NCBI RefSeq assembly: GCF_000803215.1
Contig: NZ_JSXC01000042.1
Coordinates: 1-51,051, forward strand
Length of the DNA: 51,051 bases
DNA from: Pectobacterium fontis
Lineage (GTDB): Bacteria; Pseudomonadota; Gammaproteobacteria; Enterobacterales; Enterobacteriaceae
Direction: 5' to 3'
Under the pieces are notes generated by a model, which was given only the letters and a program-made list of their open reading frames with translations, was not told where the DNA came from and made no database searches. Each line of letters starts with the position of its first letter. The stretch's first letter is position 1. A program made the translations under genes and the position numbers. Positions 27,241-51,051 of this stretch are shown here, piece by piece.

Positions 27241-29709
27241 ATGTCTCGGGATGACCGCGAACCTATCGGACGCAAAGGGAAAGCGCCAAAACGTAAACCT
27301 GAACGCAAACAGGCTATACGACGTCGCAGGGATGACGACTATGATGATGACTACGACGATTATCAGGACGACTATGACGACGATGATGATGACGATGGTG
27401 ATGAGACCATGACGCGTAAATCGCAGAGAAAACGGCGATGGCTCGGGCTGGCGATCAAGCTGTTTCTGGTCTTCGCCGTGGCGATGGCGATCTATGGCGT
27501 GTACCTCGACAGCCAGATCCGCAGCCGTATTGAAGGGAAGGTTTGGCAGTTGCCTGCCGCCGTCTATGGTCGCATGGTCAACCTTGAACCCGGTATGGCC
27601 TATAGCCAGAAAGAGATGATCAGTCTGCTGGAAGGCATGCAATACCGTCAGGTGAGCCGCATTACCCGTCCGGGTGAATTCAGCGTGCGCGGCAACAGCA
27701 TCGACATGCTGCGCCGCCCGTTTGATTTCCCCGATGGCAAAGAAGGACAGATTCAGGCGCGTCTGACGTTTGCCAACGATCGCTTGTCACAGATCCAGAA
27801 TCTGGACAACCAGCGTAACTTTGGCTTTTTCCGTCTCGATCCGAAACTGATCACCATGATGCAGTCGCCGAATGGCGAACAGCGTTTATTCGTGCCGCGT
27901 TCCGGCTTCCCTGATTTGCTGGTTGATACGCTGGTTGCGACCGAAGACCGCCATTTCTATGAGCACGATGGTATCAGCTTGTACTCCATTGGCCGTGCAT
28001 TTTTAGCCAACATCACGGCGGGACGGGCGGTACAGGGCGGCAGTACGCTGACGCAGCAGTTGGTGAAGAACTTGTTCCTGACTAACGAGCGTTCGCTGTG
28101 GCGTAAAGCCAATGAAGCCTACATGGCGCTGATCATGGATTACCGTTACAGCAAGGATCGTATCCTTGAACTGTACCTCAACGAGGTGTACCTCGGTCAG
28201 AGCGGTAACGATCAGATCCGCGGTTTCCCGCTCGCCAGCTTGTACTATTTCGGCCGTCCGGTGAATGAACTGAGCCTTGACCAACAGGCGTTACTGGTGG
28301 GGATGGTGAAAGGGGCGTCGCTGTATAACCCGTGGCGTAACCCGCAGATTACGTTAGAGCGACGCAATCTGGTGCTGCGTTTGTTACAGAATCAGCAGGT
28401 TATTGATGCTGACCTGTACAACATGCTGAGTGCGCGTCCACTGGGTGTGCAGCCGAAAGGCGGTGTCATCAGTCCTCAACCTGCCTTTATGCAACTGGTG
28501 CGTCAGGAACTGCAACAGCGTCTTGGCGACAAGGTTAACGATCTCTCCGGCGTGAAGATCTTTACCACGCTCGATCCGGTTTCTCAGGACGCGGCGGAAA
28601 AAGCGGTGGAAGTAGGCGTGCCAGCGCTGCGCGCAGGGCGTAACGTCAGCGATCTGGAAGCGGCGATGGTGATTGTCGATCGCTTTAGCGGTGAAATTCG
28701 CGCGATGGTCGGCGGTTCGCAAACGCAGTACGCCGGGTTTAACCGTGCGCTACAAGCTCGTCGCCCCGTTGGGTCATTGGCGAAGCCGCCGACCTACCTG
28801 ACGGCGCTGAGCCAGCCGGACAGTTATCGTCTGAATACGCTGCTGGCGGATGAACCGCTGTCGATCAAGCAGTCTAATGGGCAGCTATGGCAGCCGAAGA
28901 ACTACGACCGCGAATTCCGTGGCCGCGTCATGCTGGTGGATGCGCTGGCGAACTCGCTAAACGTCCCGACGGTTAATCTGGGGATGGCGGTAGGGCTGGA
29001 TCAGATATCGGCGACCTTGCAGCGTTTGGGGATCCCGGCAAATGTCATTCAACCTGTACCGGCAATGTTGCTGGGCGCGATCAGCCTGACGCCGATGGAA
29101 GTGGCGCAGGAATACCAGACGATCGCCAGCGGCGGTAACCGTGCGCCACTCTCCTCGCTGCGTTCGGTGATTGCGGAAGATGGCACGGTACTGTATCAGA
29201 GCTTCCCGCAGGCTGAACGCGCGGTTCCGGCGCAGGCGGCCTACCTGACGTTGTATGGCATGCAGCAGGTGGTTGAACGCGGTACGTCGCGTTCGCTGGC
29301 GGTGAAATTCCCGAATTATCATCTGGCAGCGAAAACCGGTACGACGAACGACCTGCGTGACAGTTGGTTTGCCGGGATCGACGGTAAAGAAGTGGCGATT
29401 AGCTGGGTCGGACGTGACAACAACGGCCCGGCCAAGCTGACCGGGGCGAACGGGGCGCTGACAATTTATCGTCGCTATCTGGAAAATCAAACGCCGCTGC
29501 CCTTACTGCTGACGCCGCCGGAAGGGATTACGACCATGACGGTGGATGGCAGCGGTAACGTTGTCTGCAACGGCAGCAGCGCCGGACGGGTATTGCCAGT
29601 CTGGACGGATAACCCGCAAGCGCTGTGTCAGGCCAGCCAGCAACAGCCTTCAGCGCAGCAGGATGGTGAAGGTGTCGCTGACTGGATCAAACAAATGTTT
29701 GGTCAATAA
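27241..29709 (+). CDS. mrcB: Penicillin-binding protein 1B (bifunctional peptidoglycan synthase)
   Basis: An 822-residue class A PBP that polymerises glycan strands and cross-links peptides. The cytoplasmic tail has a basic segment and an Asp/Tyr tract (31-56); one transmembrane helix follows at about 67-89, then a UB2H-like domain to about 200. The GT51 domain has catalytic Glu235 ([13 protein letters not shown]) and [12 protein letters not shown]. The transpeptidase has Ser512-x-x-Lys515 (GSLAKP), SLN and KTGTTN. An in-frame ATG at 27409 (Met57) lies where E. coli initiates its shorter gamma form. A terminator follows. Confidence 0.97.
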
Positions 29710-45860: not shown

Positions 45861-46313
45861 TTATTTTTCAGCAATGAAATGATCGTTGTTATTGATGATG
45901 GGGATATAGACCCTTACCCATTCATTGCCGTCAATGATATCCCAACTATGACCTTCACCTTTGGTATCATCTGCAATGAGTACCGTACCAGGTTCAATAA
46001 TAAACGTTGAGCCATCGCTGACTTTGAATTTCAATTTGCCTCGCATGGTGACGACATATTGTGTTCTTGGGGCAGGGTGTACACCTTTTTGCCATTCTTC
46101 AAAGGTATTGCTGAAATAGATATTTTCCGAGGAAAATTTTTCCAGTGAAGGAATACTACCTCTGACGAAAGCAGAATGATTATCCGGCGTATTGATGAGT
46201 TTTATCGCGGGAAGGCGATGCAGGCTATTCTCTTTTGTGATAGTTTCGCTGTGTGCCGTCATTGATATAAATAGGCCGATGACAGCGAAGAAAAACACGT
46301 TAGATCTTTTCAT
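45861..46313 (-). CDS. Exported cupin-domain protein
   Basis: A protein of about 150 residues with an N-terminal signal peptide (MKRSNVFFFAVIGLFISMTAHS) and one cupin barrel. The barrel shows the HPAPRTQYVVTMRGKLKFKVSDG and FIIEPGTVLIADDTKGEGHSW stretches typical of small cupins. The ligand is unknown. An in-frame ATG at 46331 would add six residues; neither start has a strong ribosome site. The gene and its flanks are markedly AT-rich compared with the cys operon, suggesting horizontal acquisition. Confidence 0.72.
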   Translation of the reverse strand: MKRSNVFFFAVIGLFISMTAHSETITKENSLHRLPAIKLINTPDNHSAFVRGSIPSLEKFSSENIYFSNTFEEWQKGVHPAPRTQYVVTMRGKLKFKVSDGSTFIIEPGTVLIADDTKGEGHSWDIIDGNEWVRVYIPIINNNDHFIAEK

Positions 46314-46533
46314 TTGCGATTTTACATCCATAATGTTGGTTTTTGTTAAGTTTTTTAAATGATTAAATAAAATTGTTGATTATGATTTTTTATTTTGTAG
46401 GATTCAGCGTGCGGTAATCTACTTGTCTGTAGATAATGCCGTCAATTATTTTTTTTAAAATAAAAAACACCTGAGATAGATGATATCCTTTGCAATATTA
46501 GGGGATTTTCTAAAGTACAATGGATGGAAATGG

Positions 46534-48192
46534 ATGAATAGGTTAAAAAATGCACGCCTTGGCACTATGCTGGGACTAGGTTTTGCTTTTGTTATTCTTA
46601 TTGGATTATTAGTTGCAATATTTGCGCGAATACAGTTGAGCACGGTAGGACATAATTTTGATTATGTCGCGAAGACGAGGTTATCCAATTTACTGTTGAT
46701 CATGGCGATAAAAGATAAGATTACTGACAACGCCTACGAAACTCGTGACATGGTACTTTACACTACTCAGCCGCACAGTGAGCAGGAGATGCGGGAGTAT
46801 GTACAAAGTAAACTAAAAATATTAGAGCAACGTATCGTTGATAATAATTCATTATTAAAACAATTAGATGCGTCATTGAAAATTAAGCATTCGCGTGAAC
46901 TGTTTGATAATTTAAATCGTGTTCGTCCTCCTTATTCGAATGTATTACGTAAAGCGATGTCTCTCAGTGCGTCTGGACAGTATGACGAAGCGCGAGCGGT
47001 TGTGATCAATGAGGTATTAGAGAAACAAGATCATGTGCTGGAAGCACTGAATCTGCTCATCAGCGAACATGCAAAAGATACCGCTAGTATGTCTCAGAAT
47101 TACATGGAGGATGCTAATGAGGCTGGAGCGTTGCTGTTAATGATGATTGCGTTGAGTATTGTGCTGGGGGTCTTGGTTTCCTGGGGAATCAGTCGCACGG
47201 TTAAGGGGCTACTCGGAGGTGAACCGGCTTATGCTGCTTCAATGGCGAAGCAAGTGGCTGATGGGCAACTGTCTTTCCCTGTTGAACTGCGTAAGGGAGA
47301 CACCAGCAGTCTATTATCGACGATGGACAATATGCGTGAACGCTTGCGAGGTATGGTTCAGCAAGTACGCAACAGTAGTGAATCCATCGCCACTGGTGCG
47401 AGTGAAATTGCAGCAGGTAGTACGGATTTAAGCCAGCGTACAGAAGAGCAAGCTGCCAGTTTGCAAGAAACCGCAGCGTCAATGGAGCAAATTAGTCAAA
47501 CTATCCAGCAGAATGCAAATACCGTGCGAACCGCCATACAGTTAGCGAACACCACCAGCGATACCGCTGTGAAGAGTGGTGATGCGGTGCATGATATTGT
47601 GCATACTATGCAGGAAATCAATACCAGTTCGCAGAAAATTGGTGACATTATCGGTGTAATCGATGGTATTGCATTCCAGACCAATATCCTGGCGCTGAAT
47701 GCTGCTGTAGAAGCTGCCCGTGCGGGTGAACAAGGGAGAGGGTTTGCTGTTGTTGCCGGAGAAGTCCGATCATTAGCTCATCGTTCTGCTTCCGCTGCGA
47801 AGGAAATTAAAATGCTTATCGGTGAAAGCCTCAGTACAGTAGAGAAAGGCTCAACAAAAGTCAGTGCTGCGGGCAGTACTATCGATGAATTGGTGCAGCA
47901 GGCTCGCCATGTGGCTGAGTTAGTCGGAGAAATCGGTGTGACTACCGCCGAACAAGAAAATGGTATTGACCAAATTAGCACGGCCATCATCCAGATGGAT
48001 CAAGTCACACAGCAAAATGCTACTTTGGTCGAAGAGTCTGCAAGTGCCGCGCATAGCTTAAGCGAGCAGGCAGCTAAATTGGTAGAACTGATGAGCGCCT
48101 TTAAAATTGGACGCACCGGTAAGGCCTTAGTCTCGAATACGGAAAAAATCGCACCGCTCACCTTGGCCTTATCTTCTAGCCAGAACAATTAG
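46534..48192 (+). CDS. Methyl-accepting chemotaxis protein
   Basis: A 552-residue transmembrane chemoreceptor. TM1 lies at about 9-32 ([23 protein letters not shown]), then a four-helix-type periplasmic domain to about 190, then TM2 ([21 protein letters not shown]), HAMP and a long coiled-coil signalling domain. The hairpin tip [44 protein letters not shown] is perfectly typical. The C-terminus (SSSQNN) lacks the NWETF-type CheR-binding pentapeptide. The N-terminal third is AT-rich and the signalling third is not. The frame opens at 46480; [10 protein letters not shown] was preferred. The ligand is unknown. Confidence 0.88.
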
Positions 48193-48231
48193 GCGTCAAT
48201 CACTAACCTTATAGCTTATAGATAGCTCTCC

Positions 48232-48262
48232 ATTTGTAGGGCCGATGTGTGGTCCTACAAAT
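48232..48262 (+). terminator. Hairpin after the chemoreceptor gene
   Basis: Arms ATTTGTAGG and CCTACAAAT, extended to 12 pairs with one G-T, enclose a 7-nt loop 40 bp after the stop. No T tract follows, so it may be a weak terminator or an mRNA end stabiliser. Confidence 0.5.
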
Positions 48263-48396
48263 ATGTTTATGCTGGCGTGATGGCATTTACAGATAGGATA
48301 CTCAACGTTATTCCACATGATAACGGAATATAGGCGATGCTCAGCCAACGTCAATGCGACTTAAAGCATGAACAATATATCCATGACAGTACGGAC

Positions 48397-48802
48397 ATTA
48401 AAAAAGAGATAGTATTTGGTGGATTTACTTCAAAGAGGATTCACTTTGCGGAAGTGGTGGGTCGTGCAGGATGACTCGGCCTTTGGCCTCGCCCCTTCGG
48501 GGTCAACGCTGGCGCGTTGCTGTCTCACTTCGCTCGACTCGAACCTGAACGCAGGTTCTCACCTACTCGACACGAGTAATCGATAATGTTTGGTGGATTT
48601 ACTTCAGAGAGGATTCACTTTGCAGAAGTGGTGGGTCGTGCAGGATGACTCGGCCTTTGGCCTCGCCCCTTCGGGGTCAACGCTGGCGCGTTGCTGTCTC
48701 ACTTCGCTCGACTTGAACCTGAACGCAGGTTCTCACCTACACGACACGAGTAATCGATAATGTTTGGTGGGTTTACTTCAGAGAGGAATCACTTTGCGGA
48801 AG
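48397..48802 (-). ncRNA. Possible structured RNA released from the 3' part of the tRNA operon transcript
   Basis: If the tRNA-Val/tRNA-Lys transcript reads on, it contains two copies of the hairpin-rich repeat and reaches TCTCTTTTTT (plus-strand 48397-48407). Processing after each CCA would release repeat-derived RNAs, as described for rtT RNA in E. coli. This is inference from structure; no promoter of its own was seen. Confidence 0.45.
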
Positions 48803-48820
48803 TGGTGGGTCGTGCAGGAT
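48415..48820 (-). repeat. 174-bp tandem repeats carrying the 3' end of tRNA-Lys
   Basis: Two full units (48415-48588 and 48589-48762) differ at only 4 of 174 positions. A third partial unit (48763-48820) runs into the real tRNA-Lys gene. Each unit holds the last 18 nt of tRNA-Lys including CCA (48455-48472, 48629-48646 and, in the gene, 48803-48820). Read in the tRNA direction, each full unit then folds into successive hairpins: GAACCTG/CAGGTTC, CAACGC/GCGTTG, CCCC/GGGG and GGCC/GGCC. The layout matches the E. coli tyrT (rtT RNA) repeats, but on tRNA-Lys. Confidence 0.9.
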
Positions 48821-48878
48821 TCGAACCTGCGACCAATTGATTAAAAGTCAACTGCTCTACCGACTGAGCTAACGACCC
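48803..48878 (-). tRNA. lysV: tRNA-Lys (UUU)
   Basis: A 76-nt tRNA with encoded CCA and anticodon TTT in the ACTTTTAA loop. It is the last tRNA of the operon, 7 bp after a tRNA-Val. The order val-val-val-lys divergent from gltX equals E. coli valUXY-lysV. A small hairpin CACTT/AAGTG begins directly after the CCA. Confidence 0.97.
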
Positions 48879-48885
48879 GCAGAAG

Positions 48886-48961
48886 TGGTGGGTGATGACG
48901 GGATCGAACCGCCGACCCCCTCCTTGTAAGGGAGGTGCTCTCCCAGCTGAGCTAATCACCC
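48886..48961 (-). tRNA. valY: tRNA-Val (UAC), copy 3
   Basis: A 76-nt tRNA with anticodon TAC and encoded CCA. It is identical in sequence to the two other tRNA-Val genes upstream in the same transcript. Confidence 0.97.
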
Positions 48962-49021
48962 ACTTCTGTACTACATTTGTACTACGTTTACTTCTAATAA
49001 GAAGACCAGCTGGTATGAGAT

Positions 49022-49097
49022 TGGTGGGTGATGACGGGATCGAACCGCCGACCCCCTCCTTGTAAGGGAGGTGCTCTCCCAGCTGAGCTAATCACCC
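49022..49097 (-). tRNA. valX: tRNA-Val (UAC), copy 2
   Basis: A 76-nt tRNA with anticodon TAC and encoded CCA, identical to its neighbours. Spacers of 60 and 64 bp separate the three copies. Confidence 0.97.
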
Positions 49098-49161
49098 AAT
49101 CTCAAATCTTCTTACTCTACACAGCGAGCGACTCTTACTTAACATTCGTAAACGTAAAGAG

Positions 49162-49237
49162 TGGTGGGTGATGACGGGATCGAACCGCCGACCCCCTCCT
49201 TGTAAGGGAGGTGCTCTCCCAGCTGAGCTAATCACCC
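49162..49237 (-). tRNA. valU: tRNA-Val (UAC), copy 1
   Basis: The first tRNA of the operon, 76 nt, with anticodon TAC and encoded CCA. The promoter lies directly upstream at 49255-49282. Confidence 0.97.
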
Positions 49238-49254
49238 CCGCTGTGTGGAGTCGC

Positions 49255-49282
49255 ATTATAGGGATCCTTGAATGTGAGTCAA
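49255..49282 (-). promoter_or_regulatory. Promoter of the tRNA-Val/tRNA-Lys operon
   Basis: On the minus strand TTGACT (49277-49282), a 16-bp spacer and a perfect TATAAT (49255-49260), followed by a GC-rich GCGACTCC discriminator. This is the hallmark of a strong, growth-rate and ppGpp/DksA-controlled stable-RNA promoter. Confidence 0.88.
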
Positions 49283-49426
49283 CGCTTTTTAAAACTAAAA
49301 TGATTGTTCGTTGCAAAATTAGGCAAGGCGTCGTATTTATCGCCGTTGACGCTGCATCCTTGCGCAATTCAGCCGGTTATCTGGTTATTTCCATCAGAAT
49401 AAAAGCCCGTGCGGCATGTTACGACG

Positions 49427-49454
49427 TTGAGGAATCGAAGCAGAGTGATAGAAT
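49427..49454 (+). promoter_or_regulatory. Predicted gltX promoter and leader
   Basis: TTGAGG (49427-49432), a 16-bp spacer and TAGAAT (49449-49454). The leader up to 49528 holds a hairpin TGTCGG/CCGACA near 49484-49501 and a weaker CAGCC/GGCTG pair after it. No strong ribosome site precedes the ATG. Confidence 0.6.
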
Positions 49455-49528
49455 GTTGCCCACTTTTGTTCTCTGAGCTTATGTCGGTCTGTGCCGACAG
49501 CCGTTGCGTAATAAGGCTGTAATCCCAA

Positions 49529-50944
49529 ATGAAAATCAAAACCCGTTTCGCGCCGAGTCCTACTGGCTATCTCCACGTCGGCGGCGCTCGTACCGCACTT
49601 TACTCTTGGCTCTTTGCCCGTCATCAGGACGGCGAGTTTGTGTTGCGTATCGAAGATACCGATCTGGAGCGTTCAACTCAGGACGCGATTGATGCCATTA
49701 TGGATGGTATGAACTGGCTAAGCCTGAACTGGGATGAAGGCCCGTACTACCAGACTAAACGTTTTGACCGTTATAACGCGGTTATCGACCAGATGCTGGA
49801 GAACGGTACGGCATATAAGTGCTACTGTTCTAAAGAGCGTCTGGAAGCGCTGCGTGAGCAGCAGATGGAAAATGGCGATAAGCCTCGTTATGACGGCTGT
49901 TGCCGTGGTTCTCATGAGCACCATGCGGATAATGAGCCGCACGTTGTGCGTTTCCTTAACCCGCAGGAAGGTTCGGTCATCTTCAATGACCGCATTCGTG
50001 GGCCGATCGAATTCAGCAATCAGGAACTCGACGATCTGATTATTCGCCGTACCGACGGTTCACCAACTTACAATTTCTGTGTCGTTATTGATGACTGGGA
50101 TATGGAAATCACGCACGTTATCCGTGGTGAAGACCATATCAACAACACGCCACGTCAGATCAATATCCTGAAGGCGCTGGGCGCACCGGTGCCGGAATAT
50201 GCGCATGTGTCGATGATTCTGGGTGATGACGGTAAGAAATTGTCCAAGCGTCACGGTGCGGTCGGAGTAATGCAATACCGCGATGACGGCTATCTGCCGG
50301 AGGCACTGCTGAACTATCTGGTGCGTTTAGGCTGGTCATCTGGCGATCAGGAAATCTTCTCTATTGATGAGATGAAATCTCTGTTCTCTTTGGATGCGGT
50401 CAGCAAATCGGCAAGCGCTTTCAATACGGAGAAGCTGCAATGGTTGAACCATCACTATATTAACCATCTGCCCGCAGAATACGTGGCGACGCATCTGTCA
50501 TGGCATATTGAGCAGGCTGGCATTGATACCCGTACCGGGCCACAGTTGAGTGAACTGGTTGGCTTGTTGGGCGAACGTTGCAAGACGCTGAAAGAAATGG
50601 CGGATTCTTGCCGTTATTTCTATGAAGATTTTGCCGAGTTTGACGCTGATGCGGCGAAGAAACATTTGCGTCCGGTTGCTCGTCAGCCGCTTGAACTGGT
50701 TCGCGAGAAACTGGCTGCGATTACAAGCTGGACGGCGGAGAACATCCACCACGCCATTCAGGGCACGGCGGATGAATTGGGTCAGGGCATGGGTAAAGTC
50801 GGTATGCCGCTGCGCGTTGCAGTCACGGGGGCAGGCCAGTCTCCAGGTGTTGACGTGACGGTACAGGCGATTGGTCAGCAGCGTTCGTTGGCGCGTATTG
50901 ATAAAGCGCTGGCGTTCATCGTTGAACGTGAAGCCCAGCAGTAA
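49529..50944 (+). CDS. gltX: Glutamyl-tRNA synthetase
   Basis: A 471-residue class I synthetase that charges tRNA-Glu; its product also feeds the C5 haem pathway through HemA and HemL. The HIGH motif is LHVGG (15-19) in [17 protein letters not shown], and the KMSK motif is KLSKRH (about 237-242). Zinc-type cysteines CYC...YDGCC lie at about 98-127. The anticodon-binding helical domain is complete to the terminal EREAQQ. It is near colinear with E. coli GltX and divergent from the tRNA-Val operon, as there. Confidence 0.97.
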
Positions 50945-51001
50945 TTACTCGCGTGAATAGCGTTATATAAAGCAGACCCCGGCACCATACCGTCATACTG
51001 T

Positions 51002-51051
51002 TGGATTTAGGGGGAAACACGGTGATGAGTCCCGCAGGGATACCTCGCACC
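51002..51051. repeat. Palindromic dispersed repeat, copy cut by the window end
   Basis: Matches 13889-13940 almost base for base (TGGATTTAGGGGGAAACACG and onward) except for a 2-base deletion in GATGAG-TCCC. The element continues past the window end, so its far arm is not seen. Confidence 0.8.

Follow-up and report, generated by a model that had tools for sequence, protein, structure and literature searches.

Behind the lysV gene of Pectobacterium fontis lies a tandem array whose full units each end in the tail of a tRNA-Lys. Where does such a repeat come from, and why does it carry part of a tRNA? We analyzed the whole stretch of DNA that contains the array (51,051 nt of contig NZ_JSXC01000042.1; the window), together with related genomes. 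Our results suggest that the array is a tRNA-linked repeat (TLR) whose core is probably a non-autonomous mobile cassette, inserted at GA^A (^ indicates the junction) of hairpin-forming sequences.

The array behind lysV and its relatives

We found that the array has a period of 174 nt, with 2.4 copies and 96% matches at 48408-48820 (TRF; Table 1). A preliminary description of this DNA had reported two full units and a partial third, and this is the arrangement that we see. The two full units differ at five positions rather than the four that had been counted, and the partial unit is alike to them over ~40 nt. Unit 1 begins immediately 3' of the CCA of lysV. The last 18 nt of tRNA-Lys, also reported previously, are at the 3' end of both full units (18/18 in each). 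As described, the array is 3' of lysV in a tRNA-Val/Lys cluster, with three tRNA-Val genes preceding lysV (ARAGORN). We take the ORF adjoining this cluster to be gltX, which would make the neighborhood the same as that of valUXY-lysV in Escherichia coli K-12.

Table 1. Positions of lysV and of the parts of the array behind it, in window coordinates.
Feature	Positions	Strand	Basis or remark
lysV, tRNA-Lys(UUU)	48803..48878	minus	ARAGORN; repeated tail is 48820-48803, 18 nt at the 3' end
TLR unit 1, 174 nt	48629..48802	minus	TRF, Rfam
P1 5' strand, unit 1; antisense to tail, 10 pairs including one G-U	48736..48745	minus	
P2 hairpin, unit 1 (GAACCTG/CAGGTTC)	48715..48732	minus	5' arm is the site of the extra cassette in genome G1031
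Core, unit 1; 66 nt between GGTTCAA and ATCC	48647..48712	minus	R1 match 48643-48712, 74.8 bits
Tail, unit 1; tRNA-Lys nt 59-76	48629..48646	minus	
TLR unit 2, 174 nt; 5 differences from unit 1	48455..48628	minus	TRF, Rfam
P1 5' strand, unit 2; one mismatch	48562..48571	minus	
P2 hairpin, unit 2	48541..48558	minus	
Core, unit 2; 66 nt between GGTTCGA and ATCC	48473..48538	minus	R1 match 48469-48538, 74.8 bits
Tail, unit 2; tRNA-Lys nt 59-76	48455..48472	minus	
Partial third unit, trailer part only	48408..48454	minus	TRF

Each full unit is predicted to form P1 and P2 (see below) and four more hairpins, in agreement with the four-hairpin train noted before, and the folds are strong (z = -4.84 for unit 1 and -3.32 for unit 2; 200 shuffles each). 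A sigma-70-like site with 11 of 12 matches is upstream from the first tRNA-Val gene (two sites were found, versus 1.0 in shuffles), and no intrinsic-terminator pattern was found in 48250-49400. The array would presumably be transcribed with the tRNA operon and processed at its tRNA-like end. We also considered a CsrA site (AGGAUGA) and rejected it; according to the excerpts of PMC8144298 available to us, a CsrA predictor scores tRNA TLRs below 0.01. Elsewhere in the window, 27331-27404 contains short tandem GAC/GAT repeats with periods of 12, 15, and 21.

Both full units matched the Rfam family RF00391 (RtT), unit 1 with 98.4 bits (E 7.8e-20) and unit 2 with 93 bits (E 1.7e-18), both over the full model (positions 1-130), compared to a gathering score of 45. 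These two matches exclude a chance origin of the repeats, and they bear out the resemblance to the E. coli tyrT/rtT system that had been noticed. Like the TLRs of the excerpted PMC8144298, whose last 18-19 bp repeat the 3' end of the tRNA or 5S gene before them, the array sits directly behind a tRNA gene and has an 18-nt tail identical to the 3' end of that tRNA. TLRs were first described in 1978 by Egan and Landy, as cited in those excerpts, and there are 22 of them at ten loci in K-12 (same source). In the part seen of PMC2658671, rtT RNA is one of the repeats that vary between Salmonella serovars. Judged by sequence comparison, the window array is homologous to rtT and its Lys host is not special.

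Tail copies are found behind several kinds of tRNA gene. The own genome has 65 tRNA genes, with tail copies (at most three mismatches) behind Tyr (one), Lys (four, two of them in the window), and Arg-ACG (two). One three-mismatch match to a Val tail is upstream of the tRNA and looks like chance. In the stretches of K-12 that were examined, there are four tail units at tyrTV, five in the lysT operon, one at lysV, one at proK, and three at argVYZQ, and none behind proM and proL; only rttR is marked there as an RNA of the TLR kind in the RefSeq annotation. The units at K-12 lysV and proK have a terminator-like hairpin on both sides, before the unit and again after it.

At E <= 0.001, RF00391 matched 85 of the 394 order-level genomes, 65 of them above the curated cut-off, and 66 of the 369 class-level genomes, 24 of them above it, all counted with the stricter search filters for large sets. 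At the order-level loci, 115 of 132 tail copies (including one whose tRNA is cut by a contig end) were identical to the last 18 nt of their own tRNA. The hosts were Lys, Tyr, Pro, and Ser, and the wider set adds Arg, Gln, and Glu tRNAs. Exact tail copies were 18 or 19 nt long among the matches listed, that is, they start at tRNA nt 58/59. Among the matches listed for the class and for named genomes, 79 of 138 loci had a tail unit; many of the other 59 had a core and no tRNA upstream in the fetched stretch, and some were cut by locus or contig ends. Short TLR units (~98-102 nt) that are missing P2 and the first core hairpin were seen in lysT-type operon spacers (L072, L073, L075, L076, L078, L080, L087, and L098).

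The number of units behind lysV varies within the genus. Of 25 Pectobacterium genomes, five (including the own genome) have two units, nine have one, ten have no exact tail copy, and one was unreadable. The preliminary description had pointed to close relatives as the place to look for the unit: it is behind lysV in 14 of the 25, and Lys-tRNA units are also present in K-12 and across the order. Nine of the ten zero-unit loci keep the trailer (about seven with P1 remnants), and the tenth has a different, terminator-like trailer.

Pairing between the antisense arm and the tRNA tail

Long units consist, in order, of an antisense arm, GGTTCGA (tRNA nt 52-58), the core, and the tail. The antisense arm pairs twice, with the tail (P1) and with GGTTC (P2), and P1 is already part of the Rfam RF00391 structure.

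We found that P1 tracks the identity of the host tRNA. We started with 149 units and dropped 11 that were unanchored. The remaining 138 gave 108 distinct rows, and leaving out nine rows of a type that we call 'antiT' left 99. The own tail beat the mean of each of four other isotypes at P1 in 77 of these 99 distinct units; ~20 would be expected if the isotypes were equal. The mean energy of P1 was -12.9 kcal/mol, compared to -9.2 (sd 0.30) for permuted windows and -6.5 for shuffled windows. None of 5000 permutations was as low, a figure that is not a probability because the units are related by descent and are not independent. By host, the own tail was preferred in 18 of 21 long units for Tyr, 18 of 22 for Lys, 9 of 12 for Ser, and only 12 of 24 for Pro. 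Variants of the tail within an isotype were compensated in P1 at L019, L066, L092, and L038 and uncompensated at proK, L039, and L089.

Two other versions of this comparison were discarded. A whole-unit duplex test, in which the own tail was best in 41 of 83, let too much through, as tails also pair with other portions of the unit. An initial anchored test (4.02 pairs of 8 versus 3.45 permuted, 0/5000; 102 distinct rows) was replaced because many Tyr units were mis-anchored (Tyr, 2.95 versus 3.08). The antiT type comprises 11 of the 138 units, most with hardly any P1. The sequence GATTCGAACC, an exact antisense of the T-arm, replaces the long P1 in some units, namely at L036, L065, L076, L080, L082, L086, L090, L098, and L135.

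Cores in tRNA genes and in other palindromes

Similar cores are found inside tRNA genes. We located cores preceded by GGTTCGA, or by one of two single-letter variants of it, and followed by ATCC, and then used ARAGORN to look for tRNAs in the joined flanks. The 268 flank joins yielded 55 tRNAs across the junction. Of these, 37 were an intact tRNA plus the next tail, one was a duplicate, and 17 were counted. These 17 tRNA genes, at eight loci in seven genomes, are split between nt 58 and 59. Those for tRNA-Lys are from Photorhabdus akhurstii (10, of which some have altered acceptor stems) and Photorhabdus tasmaniensis (2); tRNA-Tyr is interrupted in P. heterorhabditis, in Kosakonia oryziphila, and in a MAG of the Rhodanobacteraceae, and tRNA-Ser in two MAGs, of which one is Sedimenticola. 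One Photorhabdus akhurstii locus (L181) is a tandem array of eight tRNA-Lys copies, each with a core in the T-loop. At L146, L158, and L326, an intact copy of the tRNA is beside the interrupted one. A self-splicing intron was considered and rejected based on these intact copies and on the absence of intron family matches in window positions 46000-51051.

The boundary of identity at tRNA nt 59, together with like cores inside tRNA genes, argues that the tRNA tail may be the flank of an insertion rather than the designed decoy that had been suggested. Alternatively, the interrupted tRNA genes could be products of recombination of a tRNA gene with a TLR rather than of insertion.

We compared cores using two models with rough E-values: R1, built from 41 tRNA-linked cores only (the window units were outside its alignment), and R2, built from dispersed Pectobacterium cassettes only. 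Nine of 11 predicted core pairs in R1 are kept through changes on both sides. R1 recognized both window units (Table 1), and its best match elsewhere in the window was a chance match (E 0.92). It also matched all eight interrupted-tRNA loci (weakest E 0.0011) and, at E <= 1e-4, 46 of 299 genomes of the phylum. Of these, 26 are in one family outside the class, with Ser or Gln tRNAs upstream in many of the R1 loci seen. In five further genomes, R1 had 17, 34, 2, 3, and 26 matches at E <= 0.01. Those inspected were mostly away from tRNA genes, with L307 and L326 at tRNA genes. R1 also found the dispersed cassettes (E 7.6e-7 to 0.02).

R2, in turn, matched the Lys TLR on C24 of the own genome (2.8e-10), an interrupted tRNA-Tyr (1.1e-5), the own Tyr TLR (6.9e-5), K-12 proK (2.2e-4), a Thiohalobacter REP (5.2e-4), and K-12 arg (5.4e-4). 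Weaker matches (0.001-0.1) included other TLRs and interrupted tRNAs, some of the latter at 0.005-0.06. At E <= 0.1, R2 did not match the two window units, K-12 lysV, or the interrupted tRNAs L146 and L202. The link from window-type to CAAAA-type cores therefore runs through R1 and intermediate units. At gathering thresholds, Rfam found nothing in eight dispersed loci. Taken together, the two models give good but not complete support for the notion that TLR cores and dispersed cassettes are one family.

In Thiohalobacter thiocyanaticus, cores are inside a palindrome that we take to be REP-like. Of 19 filled loci that were fetched, 15 fit an expression that itself demanded ATCC after the core. 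The core follows GGA in 14 of these; in the remaining one (L287), the split fell within the core. The empty palindrome reads GGCCGGAATC in 9 of 11 fetched short matches. In a scan of named genomes, many cores had no upstream tRNA in the fetched stretch, among the matches listed; these loci are a biased set, selected by a pattern ending in ATCC. We also looked for a link to the Y1 genes that we take to be RAYT transposases and found no support for it: in three cassette-rich genomes, the cassette was in the fetched flanks of 1 of 12 PF01797 loci (some overlapping).

In Pectobacterium, the cassette CAAAA..TTTTGAAC..GGCCC occurs in 25 of 25 genomes, at 4-42 per genome (counts that include TLR units and nested matches), and the backwards pattern had no matches. 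In the loci read, it is in an element that we take to be ERIC-like and in two other palindromes. The junctions are GA^A; one host type fits this only when its final base, which is ambiguous, is assigned to suit. At L450 and L452, a copy within a tandem of cassettes does not obey this rule. In the window, the junction of unit 2 is GGTTCGA^ATCC, as expected for GA^A, and that of unit 1 is GGTTCAA^ATCC. A Lys TLR in genome G1032 (L460) has a core with CAAAATCGG..GAGTA that is intermediate between TLR cores and dispersed cassettes.

The T1-T2 spacer of K-12 rrnB (NC_000913.3; L471:644-716) contains GAGTAGGA, a cassette, and AACTGCCAGGCAT, that is, a 5S 3' end around a cassette-like core (R1 E 6e-4). 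The rrnB T1-T2 terminators are in wide use on plasmids (PMC8144298, in excerpt). In the part seen of PMC12306157, rttR is one of the E. coli sRNAs for which a REP is predicted, in keeping with a link between TLRs and palindromic repeats.

Two sites in the genus are filled in some genomes and empty in others. In the P2 hairpin of the lysV unit, G1031 has an additional 74-nt cassette at GTGAGA^ACCTGC; P2 is plain in the own genome, G1027, and G1018. In the first lysV unit, 13 genomes have an uninterrupted P2 site and one has it filled. A like cassette is at the same place in G1036 and in the partial unit of G1027, so P2 may have been filled in a single event that was then inherited or spread by conversion. 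At the ERIC-like site, G1034 has an insert of 71 nt at GCGTGA^ATCCCC that is recognized by R2 (E 2.3e-5); G1016, G1018, and G1019 read GCGAGAATCCCC. There was no target duplication at either pair, and the direction of change is assigned by parsimony from few genomes. Among the lysV loci of the genus, we saw losses of the unit but no orthologous site that lacks just the core of the window units.

A proposed inserted cassette, its rivals, and known systems

Based on these results, we infer that the cassettes, including the window's own, are homologous, that the changes were insertions rather than deletions, and that the cassette has been mobile. A unit would consist of tRNA-Lys nt 59-76, preceded by a multi-hairpin cassette of ~50-80 nt and by an antisense arm (P1, P2). 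The cassette would insert at GA^A in hairpin-forming sequences without duplicating the target, and its targets would include the tRNA T-arm (GGTTCGA^ATCC), REP-like and ERIC-like palindromes, and the hairpins of TLRs themselves. TLRs would then be 3' ends of tRNA or 5S that received a cassette, with the portion after the junction becoming the 18-nt tail, and arrays would have grown and shrunk in tandem by unequal recombination. P1 might be kept by selection on the RNA, or by a need for a hairpin at the site.

A different reading, which we consider unlikely, is that the unit is mainly a functional RNA, either a processed trailer sRNA (rtT) or a regulator, with the dispersed look-alikes as a by-product. 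The tail would be a signal for RNase E or 3' maturation, and P1 would be required for folding. P1 pairing that follows tRNA identity, two-sided changes that keep 9 of 11 predicted core pairs, and the strong folds of the window units all fit such an RNA. In the excerpts of PMC8144298, processing and binding to Hfq and CsrA are described for the 5S members RrA/B/F, and recognition by RNase E has been proposed for 5S members. However, the same excerpts give no known function for TLRs and say that an earlier starvation claim for tyrT was withdrawn, and RttR is marked 'no change' in one table row of PMC4606813. In addition, 10 of 25 genomes of the genus have no exact tail copy behind lysV, and R1 matches many places that are not tRNA genes.

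The filled and empty sites could also reflect loss, if the cassette were ancestral in palindromes and removed precisely, for example by palindrome-induced deletion. Losses do happen, as most zero-unit lysV loci retain the trailer and P1 remnants, and long ERICs with ~70-bp inserts have been discussed in the literature as a deletion system. But the filled copies are most likely younger than intact tRNA genes and plain REPs, and the P2 site is filled in one genome and uninterrupted in 13; we find this reading improbable. The preliminary description had suggested an analogous, convergent design at a different tRNA. The tRNA host and the trailer are indeed different from those of tyrT, but the repeats belong to the same Rfam family and fit the same core model, and the homology of the cores contradicts an independent origin. 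Lys versions are found in K-12 and across the order, and with Lys, Pro, and Arg versions in K-12 itself, convergence at another tRNA fails. We regard it as very improbable.

A mobile core, if this is what it is, would account for the tRNA tail as the flank of an insertion and would unite TLRs, filled REPs, ERIC inserts, and the spacer of rrnB T1-T2 in one testable problem. We put at about even the chance that these elements (for ERICs, the long ones) are a single cassette family: nested, palindrome-seeking, entering GA^A sites of palindromes, the tRNA T-loop among them, without duplication, present in Gammaproteobacteria and at least one further class, and possibly moved as folded single-stranded DNA or RNA. 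The coupling between P1 and the tRNA also offers a specific way to ask whether the trailer RNA has acquired a use. In the literature searched, the phrase 'tRNA-linked repeat' occurs in PMC8144298 and the editorial PMC9245011 alone, both seen in part; this literature omits most subscription journals, so the cassette link may already be published.

The cassette resembles parts of several known systems. Like REP/BIME elements, the Thiohalobacter copies involve a REP-like palindrome; unlike them, the cassette is a guest in the REP, and Y1 (RAYT) genes are not regularly adjacent. ERIC elements have internal inserts of ~70 bp, and the ERIC-like sequences of the genus carry a cassette of ~70 nt at two internal sites. 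In contrast to ERIC, whose insertion duplicates TA, there was no duplication in the two pairs seen, and the cassette is found beyond ERIC. The TLRs of PMC8144298 carry, as here, an exact 18-19-nt copy of the 3' end of the tRNA or 5S that precedes them, whereas the tracking of tRNA identity by P1, the interrupted tRNA genes, and the REP- and ERIC-like copies are not part of the description in the excerpts available. Finally, the window units share P1, the hairpin train, and the tRNA tail with RtT RNA (rttR of E. coli tyrTV), but their tail and P1 are those of tRNA-Lys, and the other hosts found here include Pro, Ser, Arg, Gln, and Glu tRNAs.
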